Shown here piece after piece: positions 1,179-51,452 of a stretch of DNA of 51,452 nt (positions are counted from its first letter, which is position 1; the number at the start of each line of letters is the position of its first letter). The translations under genes and the position numbers were made by a program. Source of the DNA: Bacteroidales bacterium (GTDB taxonomy: Bacteria; Bacteroidota; Bacteroidia; Bacteroidales; Marinilabiliaceae); assembly GCA_024401295.1 (NCBI GenBank), contig JAKSLG010000019.1, positions 1 to 51,452 on the forward strand, read 5' to 3'. The notes beneath the pieces were generated by a model, which was given only the letters and a program-made list of their open reading frames with translations, searched no databases and was not told where the DNA came from.

Positions 1179-2606
1179 TTACAATGTGTTGAAGAGGGTT
1201 TGAAGTTTGGTGTCTATAGTCTCTTCTGAGATTTCTTTCGCTGATATTGTTTCGACCCACGACTTTAGAATCTGAAACTTATCTGGATTCTGCATCAGGT
1301 TGCCAATGACGATGTAAGTCTGACTCATCGTGAAGCCTTGTGCCTTGCAAAGCTTGCACAGTTCGTTTCTCTTTAGAGTGATGCTGTCATTCTTGTTGTC
1401 CTGCCCATCCCATTTGATTGTCGCAAGTTTCCTTTCAGCAGTCTTGTGGCTTTGATTGATATACTTCATCGAAGTCTTCATTGCCACGTGCCCCAACACA
1501 TCCCTTATGACAAAAGGATCGTTTACCTTCTCAGCCAATAGAGAGGCGCATGTATGACGAGTTGCGTGGAAAGTATAATTTTCGGGTATGCCAACAAGCT
1601 TGAATAAACGCTTCAGTTTATAGTCTCTTCCAGAGCGACCCATGTATGGGAATAGTAAATCGTCCACAGGATTGTGGTCCAAATACTTCTGAGCAATCCG
1701 TTCGGGCTTTCCATCAAACAACAGATATAAAGGTAGTGCTATGTGTTGTTCGGTCTTGATAGTTGTGAACTGTAAGGTGAGGCCTTTCTCGTCGTGACAG
1801 ACATCACATTTCCTAAGAGCCAAACTGTCACTAATACGCAGGCCTGTATAACAAGAGAACAAAACTCTATCTCGCAATACATCATATTGAATACCCATGC
1901 CTTCAAGAACCTTATCTGGAATGTTCTCCAGTGCGGTGACTTGCTCTTGGGTTAGCGCAGGCTTTTTCTTATTGCCATCCAAGTGTGGAATCTCAAAATC
2001 TTCATAAGGGTTGTATTTGATTAGGCCATCCTTCTGTGCCTTATACAAAAGTTTCTTCAGAGAGAAGTGTATATGCGATCGAGAAATATCTTTAAGTGAT
2101 TCGCATAGACACTTGTCGAAGTCCTTCAGGAACGCAAGCGTAAATTCCTTGAAATATAGCTTGGATCCCTTCTGACCTTTATATATGTCGACAAACGACT
2201 GAAGTCTCTTGACGTGAGTGTTCTCAACGCGCATTGTCCCTTCCTTCCAGGTCTTCTTCTCGGAAATATACTCCCTAAACTTATCCATCACATTGAGCTC
2301 TTCAAATATGGTGTCGTTCTTGGCTGCCAGTCTGATGAGATCTTTAGTAAAGGCAACCTGTCTTTCCTCGGCTTCAAGCTCAGCACGCTCGATATTGAGA
2401 ACTAACGTTTTCAGGTAGTGGTTATATGCAGCAGCGTTACTATTGCGCAGAATTAGCTGGCGACTCTCGTCCCATTGTCTTTCGTTGTCTAACACAACGC
2501 CAGTAGATATAAAGACTCGGCAGTCAGCACCCTTGTAAACCTCCAGTTCGATGTTCAAGGGATAATTCTTACGTCTTCCGAGTAACAATTTGTATTTAGC
2601 CTTCAT
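1179..2606 (-). CDS. tyrosine-type site-specific recombinase
   Basis: Second integrase of the pair, 475 residues. The N-terminus closely matches its neighbour (GRRKNYPLN at 10-18, then ELEVY and the CRVxISTG motif). Catalytic residues are R257 (YTGLR), H347-x-x-R350 (HATRH), H373 (LGH) and Y382 (MKYI). About 90 residues follow the tyrosine, a longer tail than usual for the family. An upstream in-frame start at 2675 is unlikely because a Bacteroidetes -7 element (TAGTTTTG) lies at 2663-2670; ATG 2606 also aligns with the paralogue's start. Tandem tyrosine recombinases are common in mobilizable elements and invertible loci of Bacteroidales, but no other mobility gene is visible here. Confidence 0.92.
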   Translation of the reverse strand: MKAKYKLLLGRRKNYPLNIELEVYKGADCRVFISTGVVLDNERQWDESRQLILRNSNAAAYNHYLKTLVLNIERAELEAEERQVAFTKDLIRLAAKNDTIFEELNVMDKFREYISEKKTWKEGTMRVENTHVKRLQSFVDIYKGQKGSKLYFKEFTLAFLKDFDKCLCESLKDISRSHIHFSLKKLLYKAQKDGLIKYNPYEDFEIPHLDGNKKKPALTQEQVTALENIPDKVLEGMGIQYDVLRDRVLFSCYTGLRISDSLALRKCDVCHDEKGLTLQFTTIKTEQHIALPLYLLFDGKPERIAQKYLDHNPVDDLLFPYMGRSGRDYKLKRLFKLVGIPENYTFHATRHTCASLLAEKVNDPFVIRDVLGHVAMKTSMKYINQSHKTAERKLATIKWDGQDNKNDSITLKRNELCKLCKAQGFTMSQTYIVIGNLMQNPDKFQILKSWVETISAKEISEETIDTKLQTLFNTL

Positions 2607-2662
2607 GGTTTTGCCCTTTATCTGCGGTACTTTTTGTGTACCATATTTGTAACAAGATGTAG

Positions 2663-2670
2663 CAAAACTA
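2663..2670 (-). promoter_or_regulatory. -7 promoter element of the recombinase pair
   Basis: TAGTTTTG on the minus strand, matching TAnnTTTG, about 57 bases before the chosen ATG at 2606. It rules out the longer reading frame that begins at 2675. Confidence 0.6.
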
Positions 2671-2723
2671 CGCACTTTTTCTGAAAAGAAGTGAATTTTG
2701 AATGTTAAAAATCAAAAAGGCTT

Positions 2724-3308
2724 TTGGCGGTTAATGCATTGAGTGTAAATGTGTTATGTTCGTTTTGTTTCGCTTCTTCTTCGCTGTGTTTCGATATTGG
2801 GAAAGTGGATTGGATTGGCGACTATTTTGCATGGGGCGAGACGTTCCCTAAAAGCAACTACAACTGGAGTACATATTTTGACACTAATGACGGTGGTGAC
2901 ACGTTCGTAAAGTACAAGAACAATGGTGGTAAGACCGAACTTGACGATGCCGACGACGTAGCCGTTCAGACATGGGGCGGAGCGTGGAGGATGCCTACCA
3001 AGACACAGCAGGACGAACTCCGTAAAGAGTGCGACTGGGAATGGACCTCAATAAACGGTGTCAATGGCTATAAGGTAAAGAGCCGCGTGAACGACAACTT
3101 TATTTTCCTTCCTGCCGCGGGCAGCCGCTGGGATGCGGGTCTCGACGGCGTGGGCAGCCGCGGCTTCTACTGGTCGCGTTCGCTCGGCACGTTCAACTCC
3201 GGCGGCGCGTACCGCTTGTACTTCAGCTCGAGCTACGTGGATCGGGGCTACGACTTCAACCGCGGCTTCGGGTTCTCGGTTCGCCCTGTCTGCCCTGGAA
3301 CAAAATAA
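2724..3308 (+). CDS. FISUMP-domain protein, 5'-truncated, with hypervariable C-terminal region
   Basis: FISUMP (Fibrobacter succinogenes major paralogous, TIGR02145-like) domain protein. From about 2814 (GDYFAWGE) it aligns with the intact gene at 25941-26819, sharing ELDDADDVAVQTWGGAW and the stretch ending in IFLPAAG. It lacks the signal peptide and the NGHEYVDLGLTSG segment of the other copies; the first 30 residues look unrelated. The frame opens with TTG, so the true start is uncertain and the gene may be a non-secreted remnant. The last 60 codons (3120-3290) are GC-rich, adenine-poor and diverge from the other copy mainly at first and second codon positions. It also lacks the C-terminal tail seen on the 26.8 kb copy, ending RPVCPGTK. 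The truncation point lies close to the recombinase genes, suggesting a recombination junction. Confidence 0.7.
   Translation: MAVNALSVNVLCSFCFASSSLCFDIGKVDWIGDYFAWGETFPKSNYNWSTYFDTNDGGDTFVKYKNNGGKTELDDADDVAVQTWGGAWRMPTKTQQDELRKECDWEWTSINGVNGYKVKSRVNDNFIFLPAAGSRWDAGLDGVGSRGFYWSRSLGTFNSGGAYRLYFSSSYVDRGYDFNRGFGFSVRPVCPGTK
3120..3290 (+). other. putative DGR-type variable region of the FISUMP gene
   Basis: C-terminal cassette encoding G-S-RW...YWSRSL...AY...GFSVRPV. Compared with the copy at 26078-26248, 17 of the first 35 codons differ by amino acid, nearly always by changes at codon positions 1 and 2 with position 3 kept as C or T (agc/tac, gat/ttt, ttc/cgc, ggc/tac). Invariant codons between them (TGG, TCG-CGT-TCG-CTC, ACG, TCC, GCG-TAC) are preserved. 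The 60 codons just upstream show the opposite pattern, mostly synonymous differences. This is what adenine-specific mutagenic homing onto AAC/AAT codons would leave; the mechanism is inferred. Confidence 0.55.
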
Positions 3309-19925: not shown

Positions 19926-22772
19926 TTATTCAACCTTTCTGCCACTCAAATCGAATTTCTCACCATTCTTGATGATGACAACCTTGCCGTTCTCGATGGT
20001 CTTGATTGTCTTTGCAGCCTTCTCGGCATTGACATCCTTAATGTCTGTACTAAGATCCTTGCCTACTACAACTTCACTGCCATTAGCAATCATCTTGGCA
20101 CCTGTGACAGCTGCTGAAGTAATGTTGGTTGGCACTACTTCAACGTTTTCGCCCTTGAAGATGTATCCTTCATCGACTAGCTGAAGCACTACTATGCTGT
20201 TGGCGCTGATGGCGTCGTTCTCTTCAATGTAGACCACACCTTCCTTCTCATTTGCACTGCCTATATGATAAGTCGTCATGCCCTCATCAATGTCGTCTGG
20301 CATGAATGGAAGATATGCCGATGACCACTCCGATTCGCCACGTTTTACAGCTATTGATACAGCGTCTACTGCTGTAAAGCCCTCTTTGATAAATGGAACC
20401 TGACCGCTCCTGATCTCAAGCAACTGGCATACGTAGTTGTCTGGGTCGGTGATGTCAACAATATTAGGTACAATTTCCTTTACCTCTTCACCATACTCAT
20501 CTGTATATGTATAAATATACTCTGGATCTTCTGGATCTACAGGGAGATAGATCAATGCTGCTGAAGACGAACCGAACACTGACATTGCATCATTCCTAGC
20601 TTCAAAGAATGTTGTTGCGCCATTTGGCCATGTAATATAGCAGAAGTATTTAGGAAGAGGTGTCGACTCTGACAGTGGCGACTGCGTGAAAATCTTGTGT
20701 CCCGTTGTCGATGTACCTGCACTATATGTTACTGTACCATTGGTTGAAGTTATATTGCTCAAACCATAAGCGCCAGATGGATTTGAGTCGCCTACGCCAA
20801 CTGTGATATCTATGTCATCTGCTCCAGTAATATCGTGACCGTTGCAGTATGACAAGCGACCATTAGTGCTGATTGTAATCCCTTTGCCTGCTTTGATTGT
20901 CGATGGGCTACTCAAAAGGGCAGTTGAAACGCTACAGTCATCAGTAATCTCAATATCACCCGAACATTCAATTTTTGCAGGACTGCCAAAAACTGGTGTA
21001 GGGGTGTTACTTTTTGTTGCTATAGATACATTGTTGGCACCAGTCAACGTGAATGGAGCTGAGGCTATCATATAGCCTGTCTGTTCGAGGGTAAAATCAC
21101 CGCCGCTTAGTGCAAATGTTGTTAGATTTGTGAAAATAGGGGCACTTGTACTGCTTACCATCTTAAAATCTTTGCATTTAGCATCTACAAGTCCGTCAAA
21201 GAATCCATGACCACTGTTGATTGTCAACTTATTGTTAGCATCTATAGTGGTAGATTTCGCTCCGATAAACGAAGATGGCTTGCTATTACTATTTATTGTA
21301 ATATTATTGCCCTTGAGGTAGATGTCTTCTTGGCTAAACAAACATTGGCATCCTCCTGCATTATCTATCAAGAGGTCGCCTGTGACCTCAGCAGAGATTG
21401 TTTTATTGCTGTTAAGAATAGGATCGACACTTCCGTTGCCTTTTACAGACAGATTGTCAGCCCCGATGCGAATGCCATTAATACAACTTGCTACCGCGCT
21501 ATTACCCTTGTTCTCAATGGCAACATCCAAAGCTTTGATGTCGAGTGTCGCGCCCGTAATCAGAGAGTTCTTCCCATTCGTATTGCCGCTGATTTTCAGA
21601 TTTCCACATTCTATATCTATTTGTGAATATTCGCCATATAAAACCTGAGCTCCGGAAGGGGCTTCAAAAGAGAGGTCGCCCGTAGTCACAAATTTCATCG
21701 TAGAGTTGTATGTGTAGAACATTGGCGCACCTGTAGAAGTGGTTTTTACTGACATGCTTTTAGCTGAAGCTTCAAACGGACCGTCCGAAACTATCATATC
21801 ACCTCCACCATCAATAACTACGTCACCAGTAGCAGCTATTTTTACTGCTTTTGAAAATAATGGTGAACCGTCACTACTTGCTTTTGTAATATTGATATTT
21901 TTTGCCGTCAGATTAGTATTATATCCGACATAAAACAAAATGCTTTTTATATTAGCTGTAATATCGCCCTTAACGTTGATATCAACGTAATCTGCAATTA
22001 CGCATGGAACATAATCCTCCATTTCAAGGACTAAACCACCATCGCCATTGATATCCAACTTGTCTACATTAGATGTTATAGGGGAAGTACCTCCGTGCAA
22101 CACAATGTCGCCTTTTATGTTTTTGAACGTTACAGTATTGTCGCTTCCTGTAGGGAAATAAAAAATCGGAGTCGAACACATCGACGCTGAGATATTAACA
22201 GAGTTGTTGCCAACAAATATAGCATTAGGTGATTTAACAGGGACGCAATGACTGCATTTTGCTACAATGGAAACCGAGCCAGTGTTGCTGAATGTAATGC
22301 CTGAAATACATTTGACAATAGGCATGTCTATTGTACAATCCGAACCATTCAATGTAATGCTACCAGGGCCAGCAATTGTTACCATCGCGCTGGTTTCACC
22401 CTGCTCAATGCATACATCATCAGGTGCTGCGGTGATTGTATTCTCACCTCTTACTTTGATTGGAGCATCACAGTTGACTATCAGCTTCTGAATCGAAATA
22501 TCCTGAAGAAGCAATTCAGTGTTGGCAGGCATTCCATCAACCTCAATGGTAGTGCTGTTGGCACCTTCTATCTTGAGTGTACCGCTGAAAGGTATCGCCG
22601 ATGGCGTTGCAGCATCAGCAGTGTAGATTGTGTATCCACTTTCAGAGATGACACAAGTAACTACATTCTGCGACTTGACATCGACTACGGGATTTTCTAC
22701 CGTGGCAGGAAGTGCCAAGGCATTCGACAATGCCGTCAGTGTTGCCAAAAAAGTAAATAGTGTTTTCTTCAT
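19926..22772 (-). CDS. large secreted repeat protein, probable beta-helix, with shared C-terminal tail
   Basis: 948 residues, no named family recognised. N-terminal signal peptide (MKKTLFTFLATLTALSNALA). Residues about 60-700 are short, Asn/Gly/Ser/Thr-rich strands with recurring I-x-G-D/N and D-I-x-I units (for example VDINVKGDITANIKS, DNLSVKGNGSV), as expected of a parallel beta-helix. A less repetitive region follows (about 700-900). The C-terminus NGKVVIIKNGEKFDLSGRKV is shared with the proteins at 23056 and 25941 and recalls the end of Bacteroidetes sorting domains cut after the LSGRKV strand; a sorting role is a guess. A four-site LytTR-like array and -7 element lie upstream. Confidence 0.8.
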   Translation of the reverse strand: MKKTLFTFLATLTALSNALALPATVENPVVDVKSQNVVTCVISESGYTIYTADAATPSAIPFSGTLKIEGANSTTIEVDGMPANTELLLQDISIQKLIVNCDAPIKVRGENTITAAPDDVCIEQGETSAMVTIAGPGSITLNGSDCTIDMPIVKCISGITFSNTGSVSIVAKCSHCVPVKSPNAIFVGNNSVNISASMCSTPIFYFPTGSDNTVTFKNIKGDIVLHGGTSPITSNVDKLDINGDGGLVLEMEDYVPCVIADYVDINVKGDITANIKSILFYVGYNTNLTAKNINITKASSDGSPLFSKAVKIAATGDVVIDGGGDMIVSDGPFEASAKSMSVKTTSTGAPMFYTYNSTMKFVTTGDLSFEAPSGAQVLYGEYSQIDIECGNLKISGNTNGKNSLITGATLDIKALDVAIENKGNSAVASCINGIRIGADNLSVKGNGSVDPILNSNKTISAEVTGDLLIDNAGGCQCLFSQEDIYLKGNNITINSNSKPSSFIGAKSTTIDANNKLTINSGHGFFDGLVDAKCKDFKMVSSTSAPIFTNLTTFALSGGDFTLEQTGYMIASAPFTLTGANNVSIATKSNTPTPVFGSPAKIECSGDIEITDDCSVSTALLSSPSTIKAGKGITISTNGRLSYCNGHDITGADDIDITVGVGDSNPSGAYGLSNITSTNGTVTYSAGTSTTGHKIFTQSPLSESTPLPKYFCYITWPNGATTFFEARNDAMSVFGSSSAALIYLPVDPEDPEYIYTYTDEYGEEVKEIVPNIVDITDPDNYVCQLLEIRSGQVPFIKEGFTAVDAVSIAVKRGESEWSSAYLPFMPDDIDEGMTTYHIGSANEKEGVVYIEENDAISANSIVVLQLVDEGYIFKGENVEVVPTNITSAAVTGAKMIANGSEVVVGKDLSTDIKDVNAEKAAKTIKTIENGKVVIIKNGEKFDLSGRKVE

Positions 22773-23055: not shown

Positions 23056-25329
23056 TTACAATTTTCTGCCCGCAAGGTCGTATTTCTCACCATCGCGGAT
23101 AATCACTACTTTACCATCCTCGATTGTCTTGATTGCCTTTTCTCTCTTGTCAGCGTTGATGTTCTTAACGGCTGTTGGGATAGAAGGGGCGTTTACATAG
23201 TTCTCGCCATCAAGGATTACGACATCCTTTGATGTGAAGTTTGGAGCGACAACGCTTCCGTCGAGGTTCTGATGGTAAACAATCTTGCTCTGGTCGCCAT
23301 TGAGCTTGTAGCATATCTCGCCGCTTGCGAACTGCTCGGCTGTGGCAGCCTCCACTACACCTTCTGAGTCACTGCCGTTGCCTATACCGCCACTCACCTC
23401 GCCGGAATTCAAAGCCGAGCCTTCGAGATAATAGCAGTTCTCAACTTTTGCTGTAGATTCTCCAAGAATGCTGCCAGTTTTTCCGTTTCCGGAAATCTCA
23501 CCATAGTTGAAGCAGTTGCTGATGGTAGTGGTTGCTGTACAATAACCGGTTATTCCACCTACACAAGCACCACTGCTTTTAGTGGAACTTATTGTTCCAA
23601 GGTTGTAGCAGTTGGTTATGTGACTCTCTGCACTGCTCCAAGAACCACCAAGTATGCCGCTAATATCGAAATCTGCAGCATCAATACGACCGTCGAACCA
23701 ACAATTTTCTATTGCAAATACAAAGTATTGCCTATCATAAGCACAGAAACCAGCGATGCCACCTGACTTTTGATAGCATTTGAAATAGGTGTCGGTAACG
23801 CCCAGATTCTTGATTGTCGCATTGCCAATGTGGCCGAAGAAACCTGTCAAGCTTTTTCCCTGGTTATTGAAAAGGCCGCTAACGGTGTGGCCCTGACCGT
23901 CGAAAGTGCCATGATAAGGATTGTTGTCTGTTCCGATAGGGCTCCACTGGGTGAACTCGCCACTGTTGAGCACATGGTCAGTAAGCACGTTCGCGTTGAC
24001 TACGATGTCGGCAGTGAGCACAGCGTTGAGAGTTGTCCAACCATTGTTGACCTTCTCTGCGAAAGTGTACAGGTCGTCGAGTGTAGCAATTTCATAAATG
24101 AATTTGCTGTCGTGTTGGTGACATACAGAACATTCACCATCAACAAAGTCGTGAAGACACAACGATTCACTATTTAGAGGTGTTTTTCCATCAGCATCGG
24201 CAAATAGGGCATTGCAGACCGAACATTCGTAGTAGGCAGCAACGCCATGTGACACGCCACTGACTGGTGCGGTTTCAGCCACCAATATAATATTGTGCAT
24301 TCTCTCCTCGTCGGTTGCCTCTGCAGGATTGTTTGTGTATGTTGAGCATCCAGTATGGCTTCTATATACAACTGCATCTGATGTCAACGAAGGAAGTCCC
24401 GAACCATGGATCTGACCGAAGGCGATAGAAGACTGGTCGCCATTGAGCTTGTAGCATATCTCGCCGCTTGCGAACTGCTCGGCTGTGGCAGCCTCCACTA
24501 CACCTTCTGAGTCACTGCCGTTGCCTATACCGCCACTCACCTCGCCGGAATTCAAAGCCGAGCCTTCGAGATAATAGCAGTTCTCAACTTTTGCTGTAGA
24601 TTCTCCAAGAATGCTGCCAGTTTTTCCGTTTCCGGAAATCTCACCATAGTTGAAGCAGTTGCTGATGGTAGTGGTTGCTGTACAATAACCGGTTATTCCA
24701 CCTACACAAGCACCACTGCTTTTAGTGGAACTTATTGTTCCAAGGTTGTAGCAGTTGGTTATGTGACTCTCTGCACTGCTCCAAGAACCACCAAGTATGC
24801 CGCTAATATCGAAATCTGCAGCATCAATACGACCGTCGAACCAACAATTTTCTATTGCAAATACAAAGTATTGCCTATCATAAGCACAGAAACCAGCGAT
24901 GCCACCTGACTTTTGATAGCATTTGAAATAGGTGTCGGTAACGCCCAGATTCTTGATTGTCGCATTGCCAATGTGGCCGAAGAAACCTGTCAAGCTTTTT
25001 CCCTGGTTATTGAAAAGGCCGCTAACGGTGTGGCCCTGACCGTCGAAAGTGCCATGATAAGGATTGTTGTCTGTTCCGATAGGGCTCCACTGGGTGAACT
25101 CGCCACTGTTGAGCACATGGTCAGTAAGCACGTTCTCGTTGACTACGATGTCGGCAGTGAGCACTGCGTTGGCGCTGGTGTTGCCTGCGTTCACGTGGCT
25201 TGCGAACCAAATCAGTTCGCTGGCTGTGGAGATCTGGTATACATCGTCCACGACCTTAGGTTCTGTGTCTTCCGCCCATGCGCAGATGGTGAGCAGGGCA
25301 GAGAACAAAAGAGTAAGTGTCCTCTTCAT
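23056..25329 (-). CDS. secreted GLUG-like repeat protein with an internal 731-bp duplication
   Basis: 757 residues. Signal peptide MKRTLTLLFSALLTICAWA. Two copies of a 244-residue module (23290-24020 and 24433-25163) carry GLUG-like units (IGNATIKNLGVTDTYF, GGIAGFCAYDRQYF, ITNCYNLGTI, ISNCFNYGEI, VENCYYLEG), typical of bacterial surface proteins with a beta-helical fold. Between them lies a cysteine-rich segment (YYECSVCNALFAD, then ECSVCHQH), a frequent linker in gut surface proteins. The C-terminal tail DGKVVIIRDGEKYDLAGRKL is shared with two neighbours. A -7 element TACATTTG is at 25422-25429. Ligand unknown. Confidence 0.85.
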   Translation of the reverse strand: MKRTLTLLFSALLTICAWAEDTEPKVVDDVYQISTASELIWFASHVNAGNTSANAVLTADIVVNENVLTDHVLNSGEFTQWSPIGTDNNPYHGTFDGQGHTVSGLFNNQGKSLTGFFGHIGNATIKNLGVTDTYFKCYQKSGGIAGFCAYDRQYFVFAIENCWFDGRIDAADFDISGILGGSWSSAESHITNCYNLGTISSTKSSGACVGGITGYCTATTTISNCFNYGEISGNGKTGSILGESTAKVENCYYLEGSALNSGEVSGGIGNGSDSEGVVEAATAEQFASGEICYKLNGDQSSIAFGQIHGSGLPSLTSDAVVYRSHTGCSTYTNNPAEATDEERMHNIILVAETAPVSGVSHGVAAYYECSVCNALFADADGKTPLNSESLCLHDFVDGECSVCHQHDSKFIYEIATLDDLYTFAEKVNNGWTTLNAVLTADIVVNANVLTDHVLNSGEFTQWSPIGTDNNPYHGTFDGQGHTVSGLFNNQGKSLTGFFGHIGNATIKNLGVTDTYFKCYQKSGGIAGFCAYDRQYFVFAIENCWFDGRIDAADFDISGILGGSWSSAESHITNCYNLGTISSTKSSGACVGGITGYCTATTTISNCFNYGEISGNGKTGSILGESTAKVENCYYLEGSALNSGEVSGGIGNGSDSEGVVEAATAEQFASGEICYKLNGDQSKIVYHQNLDGSVVAPNFTSKDVVILDGENYVNAPSIPTAVKNINADKREKAIKTIEDGKVVIIRDGEKYDLAGRKL
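23290..24020 (-). repeat. 731-bp in-gene tandem repeat, C-terminal copy
   Basis: Matches 24433-25163 at a constant offset of 1143 with one difference seen by eye (Ala/Glu codon, near 23992). The two copies are in frame and separated by 412 bases. Confidence 0.9.
24433..25163 (-). repeat. 731-bp in-gene tandem repeat, N-terminal copy
   Basis: Partner of 23290-24020. Near-identity including synonymous positions points to recent duplication or ongoing gene conversion. Confidence 0.9.
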
Positions 25330-25940: not shown

Positions 25941-26819
25941 TTACAATTTTCTGCCACTCAAATCGAATTTCTCGCCATTGCGGATGATGACAACCTTGCC
26001 GTTTTCGATGGTCTTGATTACCTTCTGAGCCTTGTCGGCATTGATAGACTCGATGGCTGTTGGAGTGCTTTCTACCATGAAGACAGGGCGAACAGAGAAC
26101 CCGTTGTCGCGGTTGTTGTAGTTGTACGAAACAACGCCCGAACGGAAGAGCAGGCCGTACGCGCTGTCGGAGCCGTCCGTGTAGAGCGAACGCGACCAAT
26201 AGCGGCCGGCGTCGCCTGCGTAGCCGAGATCCGTAAACCAGCGGTAGCCAGCGGCAGGGAGGAAAATAAAGTTGTCGTTCACGCGGCTCTTTACCTTATA
26301 GCCATTGACACCGTTTATTGATGTCCACTCCCAGTCACACTCGTTGCGTAGTTCGTCCTGCTGACCCTTGGTCGGCATTTTCCACGCTCCACCCCATGTC
26401 TGAACGGCCACGTCGTCGGCATCGTCAAGTTCTCTTTTGTTGTCGCCGATGAAGTTGCCTTCTGAGTCGTACCATACACCGCTTGTCTGACCATCTGCAA
26501 AGGTGTATTTTGTACAGCCTTCCCATGAATCCTTGCTGTGGTCCATATACTTGTATGTACTCCAATTGTAGCCAGCCGAATAGCCATCCTTCCATGTAGG
26601 GCTGTCGGTATTGCCACCTGCTGAATAGTGGGTAGTTACTTCGCCCCACGCGTAGTAGTCGCCATAGCTTTCAGGAGCATCTGCACCAACGTTGCAAGTT
26701 GCCCATTTTGTGCCACTCGTCAAGCCAAGGTCAACATATTCGTGACCATTCTCCATGTTCTGCGCCCATGCACCTGCGGCAATGAATGCAGAAGATAAAA
26801 GTGTAAGAATTTTCTTCAT
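25941..26819 (-). CDS. secreted FISUMP-domain protein with hypervariable region and shared C-terminal tail
   Basis: 292 residues. Signal peptide MKKILTLLSSAFIAAGAWA, then the FISUMP start NGHEYVDLGLTSGTKWATCN, the conserved ELDDADDVAVQTWGGAW and MPTKGQQDELRNECDWEW, the constant stretch ending FIFLPAAG, and a variable stretch (about 191-247) ending GFSVRPV. The fold of such domains is thought to be C-type-lectin-like (related to DUF1566), the usual scaffold of DGR targets. The tail NGKVVIIRNGEKFDLSGRKL is shared with the two neighbouring secreted proteins. The leader holds a G8 tract and a terminator-like hairpin. Ligand binding at the surface is a plausible role but not shown. Confidence 0.85.
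   Translation of the reverse strand: MKKILTLLSSAFIAAGAWAQNMENGHEYVDLGLTSGTKWATCNVGADAPESYGDYYAWGEVTTHYSAGGNTDSPTWKDGYSAGYNWSTYKYMDHSKDSWEGCTKYTFADGQTSGVWYDSEGNFIGDNKRELDDADDVAVQTWGGAWKMPTKGQQDELRNECDWEWTSINGVNGYKVKSRVNDNFIFLPAAGYRWFTDLGYAGDAGRYWSRSLYTDGSDSAYGLLFRSGVVSYNYNNRDNGFSVRPVFMVESTPTAIESINADKAQKVIKTIENGKVVIIRNGEKFDLSGRKL
26078..26248 (-). other. putative DGR-type variable region of the second FISUMP gene
   Basis: Counterpart of 3120-3290. Codons at the variable positions are mostly NNC (TAC, GAC, GGC, CGC, CTC, AAC, GCC), including a run TAC-AAC-TAC-AAC-AAC near the end that may preserve unmutated template codons. Fixed codons TGG, TCG-CGT-TCG-CTC, GCG-TAC and the ending GTT-CGC-CCT-GTC are shared with the first copy. 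One codon fewer than the first copy between positions 36 and 50. Confidence 0.55.
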
Positions 26820-41067: not shown

Positions 41068-41425
41068 AAGGCTCATTTTTTAAAATGGAACATTTTTTTG
41101 ATGTGCATCTCAAATGTATGAATAAAAAACAAGATTTCAAAAATGAACGAATAGAAAAATATCTGTGTTTGTGCAGTCAATATGGGTTTTGAGCCATATT
41201 TACGTTTGAAAATAGATATACGAAAACACCCAAAAAGACGTAGCCGTGCAGTTATGGGGCGGAGCATGGAACATGCCGACATACGAGCAACAGACCGAGC
41301 TTCGTAATGAGTGCTACTGGGAACGGACGGCAATCTAAGCAGATGTCAAAATAATCAACTCTTCATGAACCTTTATATATTACTCGTCGTAAACATTGAC
41401 ATGTTGGTAGTTTAGAATATCTTCT
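41068..41425. other. intergenic region with FISUMP remnant
   Basis: 358 bases. AT-rich leader of the LRR gene, a 102-base FISUMP fragment (41237-41338), then AT-rich sequence before the chemoreceptor gene. No complete gene seen. Confidence 0.6.
41237..41338 (+). pseudogene. FISUMP-domain gene remnant
   Basis: Encodes DVAVQLWGGAWNMPTYEQQ then TELRNECYWERTAI and a stop, clearly homologous to the FISUMP block DVAVQTWGGAWKMPTKGQQ plus DELRNECDWEWTSI of the other copies. The frame has a stop a few codons upstream (TAG near 41213), and nothing before or after belongs to the domain. A broken leftover of a fourth locus. Confidence 0.8.
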
Positions 41426-43201
41426 ATGGAAAAACGTTGGAATGAATTGACCACACTGATAATGGCTCCTGTTATTGGTGCAATTGCAATATTTTTAGGG
41501 CTCCTTGTAGCCAATTACTTTGTAGTAAAATCAGACATCAAAGAATTGTCGTTGGCAGATTTGCACTCGAAGGCAGGTGTTTTTGGCAATGCGTTTTTCC
41601 ATCATGGCCAGGCGCTAGCACAGGTCAACGAAGCGTTGAATGACAACTATACAGAACTTCACGAGAAGATACGCGAAAGAGACATGGAATACCTTAATAC
41701 AGAAATGGAGTGGTATAGGAAGGTATCGAAACTATATGCGTATATACTTACAGACACAGAAGGAGAGCTCATAATAGCCTCGCAGGACAACATCAACACA
41801 GAGACACTTTCGGGGATTGCGGCTGCAGTAAAAGAGCGAGGACAGGTATCTGGTATGGACCCAATATTTGAAAATCAATATTGTACGTTCAATGCAGATT
41901 ATATAAGAGATGACAATGATGAGCCAGTAGCCATATATGTAGCAGTAGGCATGAATACGAGCATAAAAGGGCAAATGGCATTAGGTGTTGATATAGTAGG
42001 TGCAACATCATTATTGTTTGACACGACACATTGCATAGCGTCAACCCATCTGGATGAGAGTGAATATACGCACATTCCAACACCTCAAATAATCATAGAC
42101 ACCTGTTTCATTGGGGGGAAGGGTCCGGTAATGGAGTTTGAGATTAACAATGTATATGGGTACTATTTTTGCACTCCTATTCGTAGCTACAAAGGGAACG
42201 TATCGGCAACGGTAACAGTCCATGCGTTTATGCAGAAGACAGAAGACGTAGTGTCGAAGCAAGGTATTATATTGGCAATGTGTACCTTTGTTGCTATATG
42301 TGTATGTCTGCTTTTGATATTCCTTTTGAGGTATCGACTGATAAATCCGGTAAAGCGATTTGTAGGAAAGATGAAGAATCTGGCAGATGGTGATTTAACG
42401 TGCGATGTGGTAATAAACGACTCATGTACTGAAATAATCGCGATAAGCGAGAGTGCTCAAGCGATGAAAGACAACATCAGGAGCGTGTTAGTGCCGATAA
42501 TAGAGAAGACAAAAGAGACAAGCCAAAACACGAGCAAACTGGCCCAGATGTCGATTGTAGTATCAGAAGCGGCAGGCAACCAGGCGGCAGCACTGGAGGA
42601 GATTTCCAGCACGATGGAGGAGATGAATTCAAATTCGGAGCAGAACAGCTACAATGCAAAGAATGCCAATGAACTGGCCAAGAGTATTGGTCAGGAGATG
42701 AAGGTTGTTGGAGAGTCTTCAGCGAGCAGTTCTGAGTCGATTTCTCGTATAGCCAGCAATATTCAGGCTATTAATGACCTCGTGAATCAGACAAACATCT
42801 TGTCGCTAAATGCATCAGTTGAGGCAGCCAGAGCGGGAGAGCAGGGTAAGGGCTTTGCTGTTGTAGCCAAGGAAGTCGGTCGTTTGGCAGAACAGACAAG
42901 AGAGACCGCAGAAGGCATAACGCAGAATGCCAATAGCAGTATTAAGGAAGTTGACGGCACCAATGAGCGAATCAAGGAGATAGTTCCGAAGATTGAGCAG
43001 ATAGTGTCGCAGATGAACGAGATTGCTGCAGCCAGCATAGAACAAAACGCAGGTGCGGCACAAGTCAATTCAGTTATTGTCGAATTGAACCGTATTACAC
43101 AAGAGAATGCTGCTTCGGCAGAAGAGATGGCATCGCGTACTGCTGAGATTCAGAAGATGGTAGCTGACATTGGCGAGGCGATAAAGGTATTCAAGGTATA
43201 G
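41426..43201 (+). CDS. methyl-accepting chemotaxis-like transmembrane receptor
   Basis: 591 residues. Helix about 10-33, extracytoplasmic sensor (about 34-275, with a Cache-like strand AYILTDTEGELIIASQ), helix about 280-302, HAMP (about 303-355) and an MCP signalling domain to the C-terminus. The CheA/CheW-binding hairpin tip is intact: NQTNILSLNASVEAARAGEQ followed by GKGFAVVAKEVGRLAEQ. No che gene is nearby and no motility gene is in the window, so its output partner is unclear. Third codon positions are A/T-richer in the sensor part than in neighbours. A terminator follows at 43276-43305. Confidence 0.9.
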   Translation: MEKRWNELTTLIMAPVIGAIAIFLGLLVANYFVVKSDIKELSLADLHSKAGVFGNAFFHHGQALAQVNEALNDNYTELHEKIRERDMEYLNTEMEWYRKVSKLYAYILTDTEGELIIASQDNINTETLSGIAAAVKERGQVSGMDPIFENQYCTFNADYIRDDNDEPVAIYVAVGMNTSIKGQMALGVDIVGATSLLFDTTHCIASTHLDESEYTHIPTPQIIIDTCFIGGKGPVMEFEINNVYGYYFCTPIRSYKGNVSATVTVHAFMQKTEDVVSKQGIILAMCTFVAICVCLLLIFLLRYRLINPVKRFVGKMKNLADGDLTCDVVINDSCTEIIAISESAQAMKDNIRSVLVPIIEKTKETSQNTSKLAQMSIVVSEAAGNQAAALEEISSTMEEMNSNSEQNSYNAKNANELAKSIGQEMKVVGESSASSSESISRIASNIQAINDLVNQTNILSLNASVEAARAGEQGKGFAVVAKEVGRLAEQTRETAEGITQNANSSIKEVDGTNERIKEIVPKIEQIVSQMNEIAAASIEQNAGAAQVNSVIVELNRITQENAASAEEMASRTAEIQKMVADIGEAIKVFKV

Positions 43202-51265: not shown

Positions 51266-51452
51266 ATGAATAGAGCCTTTACTTTATTTGTTTCTACTAT
51301 CCTTGCCACAGGCGCATGGGCGCAGAACACACACAATGGTCACGAATATGTCGACCTCGGCCTCACAAGCGGCACAATGTGGGCAACTTGTAATGTCGGT
51401 GCAGATGCTCCGGAAAAGGCTGGTTTTTACTACGCATGGGGCGAGACAGAAA
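51266..51452 (+). CDS. secreted FISUMP-domain protein (3' end off the window)
   Basis: 62 residues visible. Signal peptide MNRAFTLFVSTILATGAWA, then NGHEYVDLGLTSGTMWATCN and VGADAPEKAGFYYAWGE, close to the copy at 26819. It runs off the right edge before the variable region, so whether it carries one cannot be seen. An own promoter at 51220-51227. Confidence 0.88.
   Translation, partial: MNRAFTLFVSTILATGAWAQNTHNGHEYVDLGLTSGTMWATCNVGADAPEKAGFYYAWGETE

Follow-up and report, generated by a model that had tools for sequence, protein, structure and literature searches.

The window (the whole stretch of 51,452 nucleotides analysed here, which is contig C11; the 40 contigs of the assembly total 2.30 Mb and its completeness is 75%) carries two genes, a and b, whose variable stretches are almost certainly variable repeats written by a diversity-generating retroelement (DGR). 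In such systems, a template repeat is transcribed into RNA, from which an adenine-misreading reverse transcriptase makes cDNA; this cDNA then takes the place of the corresponding 3' part of a target gene. Genes a and b show the adenine-specific pattern, template and enzyme are found in sister species, and the same pattern recurs in dispersed targets. The copies in the window appear to have been written remotely, by an element that has since been lost or that the assembly has missed. Each round of writing would redraw codon positions 1 and 2 at around 23 codons, leaving the scaffold codons and the third bases untouched; the restriction to positions 1 and 2 would follow from the template, which spells the exposed positions AAC or AAT. 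The resulting protein would be lectin-like, and its binding face would be new.

Table 1. Coordinates of the target genes and related features in the window.
Feature	Position	Strand	Description and basis
Gene a	2724..3308	+	Open reading frame; 5'-truncated target gene
Variable repeat of gene a	3102..3290	+	Template comparison; match to the template goes on to 3298
Gene b	25941..26819	-	Complete target gene: hydrophobic N-terminus, putative lectin-like domain, variable repeat, C-terminal tail
Variable repeat of gene b	26082..26267	-	Template comparison
Control stretch of gene a	2943..3122	+	Conserved 60 codons 5' of the boundary, compared with gene b
Control stretch of gene b	26247..26426	-	The same 60 codons; codon comparison with gene a
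Third target gene, 5' end	51266..51452	+	Runs off the window; last 55 bases are the first 55 of contig C10
Related-gene remnant	41231..41338	+	Residues 134-169 of b, with a stop; protein match

When genes a and b are compared codon by codon, a boundary appears before position 3123 of gene a; in gene b it lies at 26246. In the 60 codons upstream, 13 differ, 10 of them synonymously, and the base changes are distributed over codon positions 1, 2 and 3 as 1/2/13; in the 35 codons downstream, 20 differ, of which 2 are synonymous and 18 residue-changing, and the distribution is 15/14/3 (Fisher p = 1.3e-6 for positions 1 and 2 versus 3, upstream versus downstream). Ordinary coding divergence resembles the upstream part, and the downstream part is its reverse. 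A preliminary description of the same DNA had reported the copies as near-identical before the codons GCC-GCx-GGC, with about 13 of 60 codons differing (10 synonymously), which is exactly what was counted; its estimate of about 19 of 35 differing codons downstream, about 17 of them residue-changing, came within one of the recount. The concentration of downstream changes on codon positions 1 and 2 that it had noticed was likewise borne out, and the invariant codons that it named are present in the alignment. Its upstream near-identity holds for around 62 codons, back to the GAACTTGACGATGCC motif, and does not extend beyond, where gene a is truncated. Chance sharing of the invariant motif can be dismissed: the window has two hits with at most three mismatches, shuffled sequences have a mean of 0.04, and none of 100 shuffles reached two.

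Homology of gene a to its closest paralog (C10:32k) starts only at position 2816; upstream of this point there is neither an in-frame ATG nor a signal peptide. Directly upstream of the truncated gene lies a tyrosine recombinase gene (1179-2675, minus strand; Phage_integrase and Phage_int_SAM_5), which may be the sign of an insertion that took away the 5' end of gene a. Both variable repeats are located at the 3' end of the coding region, which is typical of DGR targets. Gene a stops five residues past the repeat (CPGTK), and the cassette targets of sister species finish in CPGVQE; in gene b, 46 further residues follow. The tail of gene b recurs on 12 open frames that have no variable stretch. 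It is shared by two large proteins without a Pfam match, encoded at 23056-25329 and 19926-22772 (both minus strand). The related-gene remnant listed in Table 1 precedes a chemotaxis-receptor gene (41426-43201).

No Pfam model matched gene a or gene b at E 0.001, and a search of both genes against NCBIfam gave chance-level matches only. The nearest Pfam models for the protein group are Lcl_C/DUF1566 (E 0.0016 for gene b), which match, at E <= 1, 11 of the 12 proteins in alignment A2; Fib_succ_major matches five of the 12. The label 'FISUMP' given to the two genes in the preliminary description is therefore an approximation. A sequence search of the target profile against solved structures retrieved no relevant match, and Foldseek returned nothing from the PDB at E <= 0.001; a second comparison, with VIA-align, gives a hint of a lectin-like fold. 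The targets are probably exported to the cell surface and may bind some ligand. A search of a phage collection yielded seven distant records, six of which belong to Lak phages of Prevotella.

Decisive evidence for the DGR comes from comparing the two genes with a template of the sister genome G011. Gene a differs from it at 34 of 53 adenines and at 5 of 141 other bases (p = 3.9e-19), and gene b at 30 of 53 adenines and 18 of 136 other bases (p = 4.0e-9), so that the differences of both genes are concentrated on template adenines, as is characteristic of DGR targets. The 18 changes of gene b at non-adenine bases suggest that this gene has also drifted or was written from a slightly different template. 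At the AAC/AAT codons of the template, the third base is kept at 23 of 23 positions in gene a and at 21 of 23 in gene b. The codon usage of the other long open reading frames in the window predicts a retention of about 10.6 and 10.3, respectively (binomial p 2e-8 and 4e-6); this expectation is approximate, as codons ending in C were counted, though one template codon is AAT. Among the five templates compared, T1 fits both genes best.

Template and enzyme were sought in 15 genomes of the genus, comprising the genome that holds the window and 14 others. The template-type spelling of the conserved motif, AAYAAYGGNAAYTAYTGGTC, has one exact match each in G002, G010 and G011, and the reversed pattern, which served as control, has one match in all 15 genomes. 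The reverse transcriptase model PF00078 matches in seven of the 15 genomes, a count that includes RVT_1 matches in G012, G009 (C69), G008 (C4) and G003 left unsorted as to DGR type. With the G011 enzyme as query (RVT_1 E 1e-15), near full-length relatives are found exclusively in G002, G010 and G011, two of them in G011, and G003 has a weak internal match. Thus, 3 of the 14 other genomes carry a full-length DGR-type reverse transcriptase beside an AAC-rich template, and in all three the enzyme gene starts at most about 50 bases from the template. DGR reverse transcriptases usually carry the motif (I/V/L)GxxxSQ, and the sister-species enzymes read GNLTSQ in the enzyme alignment. Fragments covering solely the C-terminal part of the enzyme occur at G011:C25:30583-30723, G009:C22:34666-34938 and G008:C6:19906-20046 and may be what is left of lost elements.

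In G010 and G011, the cassette is arranged as target gene, accessory gene, template and reverse transcriptase. The accessory position of these first-type cassettes is occupied by a gene of 185 residues with a weak match to MutS domain I, and a second cassette of G011 has a bAvd-like gene. Between the template and the target next to it, G010 has differences at 24 of 54 adenines and none of 147 other bases, and G011 at 24 of 54 and 1 of 147 (rows L107 and L108, which are self-aligned to the template, were excluded). Both genomes therefore have a complete DGR with reverse transcriptase, template and target together and with adenine-specific changes. Compared with each other, the two cassette repeats differ at 27 of 54 template-A columns and at 1 of 147 others, and 19 of the 468 coding bases in front of them differ. 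The pattern extends to targets away from the cassettes: relative to the template, the target on C15 of G011 differs at 31 of 54 adenines and none of 147 other bases, and those of G010 at 22 of 53 and 2 of 139 (C11) and at 27 of 52 and 6 of 127 (C7). When more than half of the mismatches were required to fall on A, an adenine-biased repeat pair was present in 11 of the 12 named enzyme loci, the exception being L128. Inverted repeats that may form the hairpin expected after a variable repeat are found 3' of the cassette targets in L126, L127 and L132. A 211-base template stretch (L054, L055) is 100% identical between G010 and G011; at the protein level, the two enzymes share 92% identity.

With the protein of gene b as query, 48 matches were obtained in its own genome. 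In the loci retrieved, the variable stretch could be read in 16 copies, spread over 14 genes: a, b, C34, C36, C10 (two genes), C39, C1 (two domains), C18, C22, C15, C40 (two domains), C24 and C16. Two matches to Fib_succ_major, on C13 and C14, do not have the motif of the variable stretch and are not included. The 16 copies are graded from a perfect signature down to background. Of 23 third bases, gene a keeps 23 relative to T1, C36 22, gene b and C34 21, C10:32k and the second C1 domain 20, C22 19, the copy at the start of C10 and C39 17, and C15 and the first C40 domain 16; the first C1 domain and C18 keep 17 of 22 each. C24 (11 of 23), the second C40 domain (10) and C16 (9) lie at background or close to it and act as an internal control for the family. 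Each copy was compared with five of seven templates (all except L131 and L130). For the copy on C15, the second G011 template is a far better fit than the first (29 of 53 adenines and 7 of 130 other bases differ, 20 of 21 third bases kept), which indicates that genes of this lineage have been written by two or more elements; for C22, C24 and both C40 domains, the best template is also one other than T1, with weak fits. The earlier suggestion that a single element was responsible thus agrees with genes a and b, which both fit T1 best, and does not cover C15.

Some copies carry a further C-terminal tail past the variable repeat. The third target gene of the window is linked by the 55 identical bases to contig C10, which holds one of the 16 variable stretches at C10:418-609; a contig break inside a target gene is expected when near-repeats stop the assembler. 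At G000:C10:31642-31827 and G000:C22:21315-21503 (G000 is the genome of the window), and likewise in the G010 cassette (L054:10157-10669), the gene just 5' of a target encodes a small protein whose sorting domain is of type IX (PF18962). This protein is a possible partner of the targets.

The pattern might also have arisen by ordinary divergence of lectin-like paralogs under diversifying selection on surface residues, with no DGR involved. Drifted copies indeed show an excess of changes at A as well (C39: 23/53 versus 32/136), since template adenines sit where such proteins may vary anyway, and C16 and C24 are near background. However, selection on residues would not keep the third base unchanged at 23 of 23 codons, against an expectation of about 10.6, nor would it confine changes to template adenines (34/53 versus 5/141). 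These counts refute ordinary divergence for gene a; it stands for the weakest copies, and for the pattern as a whole it is very improbable. Gene conversion among the copies, or a chimeric assembly, has been considered as the origin of the sharp boundary, and contigs do break inside target genes, as the 55 bases shared by the window end and the start of C10 illustrate. Neither process, however, puts differences on the template adenines of another species, and genes a and b lie well inside their contig. The template-adenine and third-base counts refute both as the cause of the pattern, and we regard their part in the boundary as scarcely credible.

The preliminary description had predicted a template with AAC/AAT at the varying codons and a DGR reverse transcriptase. 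Both exist in sister species, whereas neither was found in the 75% complete assembly of the genome itself: there is no DGR reverse transcriptase and no exact match to AAYAAYGGNAAYTAYTGGTC, and all nine matches to the G011 template as DNA query are located at coding copies. The MutS-like accessory gene had no match in the same assembly either, and a search for Avd in the window and the fetched loci of this genome gave one chance-level match (E 0.6). At this completeness, the absence of enzyme, template and accessory gene does not prove loss.

Two accounts of the present state of the element were weighed. It is an even call whether the lineage has lost its DGRs, so that the copies are orphans of different ages, with decaying signatures, which now change by point mutation and recombination among copies only. 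Enzyme, template and accessory gene are missing from the assembly, yet traces of two templates persist, and the third-base signature is graded from 23/23 to 9/23. Loss is further suggested by the short enzyme fragments in G008, in G009 and on C25 of G011, and by the sister genome G007 (91% complete), which has five template matches and no RVT_1 or DGR enzyme match; its four tested copies differ at 30-32 of 51-52 adenines and at 21-23 of 136-137 other bases. However, the completeness of the assembly is no more than 75%, loci of this kind may be lost in binning, and gene a is so clean (5/141) that its last writing must be recent. The low number of non-adenine changes in gene a and the completeness of 75% would also be in line with the other account, whose chances we place a little under even: a live DGR, located in the quarter of the genome that is missing from the assembly or carried by a phage or plasmid, continues to write gene a and its sister copies remotely. 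Template columns 6, 15 and 84 are C instead of T in five, four and five, respectively, of six copies of this genome, as if these had been written by its own template with those bases. Moreover, viral contigs often encode related enzymes (242 confirmed, 80 kept). In the 80 viral loci (L138-L217), an adenine-biased repeat pair of 60-400 bases, with at least 6 mismatches and at least 75% of them at A, was found in 58 and not in 22, and a loose expression detected no target of this protein group among them. A live element is harder to reconcile with traces of two kinds of template when neither enzyme was found, and gene a, which has no 5' end, may not be expressed.

We tentatively propose, as a possibility that we hold to be rather unlikely in its full form, that the copies constitute a genome-wide repertoire of lectin-like, probably exported proteins, which was written remotely by at least two DGRs and is still duplicated and used after element loss. 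It would then be a standing, partly fossil repertoire rather than one live cassette. Because third bases are retained at varying codons, paralogs alone suffice to recognise DGR targets, and neither template nor enzyme is needed; surveys that seek a variable repeat beside the enzyme miss such genes. If orphan repertoires are common in Bacteroidales of the herbivore gut, hypervariable proteins outnumber what counts of DGR enzymes suggest. The graded copies also offer a way to ask when the element last wrote each gene.

DGR targets of this protein group are already in print: targets with Fib_succ_major and DUF1566 domains (9 and 47 proteins, respectively) have been described in human microbiomes, and targets were also sought on contigs without an enzyme gene (PMC4159848). 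What is unusual here is the dispersed orphan target set; of interest are the number of dispersed copies without a visible element, their graded decay and the traces of two templates. A literature search for DGRs together with FISUMP returned nothing, and in the text retrieved by a search for DGR, 'orphan' and 'variable repeat', 'orphan' was used in another sense only. One survey states that its own approach would not detect remote targets (PMC8144416). Like the proteins of the human microbiomes described in PMC4159848, the targets analysed here have a C-terminal variable repeat, belong to the same domain group and vary adenine-specifically; unlike them, they comprise 16 readable copies in one genome, some of them tailed, with at least two templates and an enzyme that was not found. 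Multiple variable repeats are present in 271 of 948 DGRs, DUF1566-domain proteins among them (PMC6642488). As in these multi-repeat systems, one template serves several genes, but in the present genome the copies are spread over many contigs, their signature fades, and the element is not seen in the assembly, which sets them apart from those systems. Template, reverse transcriptase, C-terminal variable repeat and adenine-specific change are shared with the DGR of Bordetella phage BPP-1 with its Avd protein, as outlined in PMC6642488, and the bAvd-like gene of the second G011 cassette resembles Avd. In contrast, the first-type cassettes of G010 and G011 carry the 185-residue gene with the weak match to MutS domain I in the place of Avd, and the targets are chromosomal bacterial genes, whereas that of BPP-1 encodes a phage tail protein.
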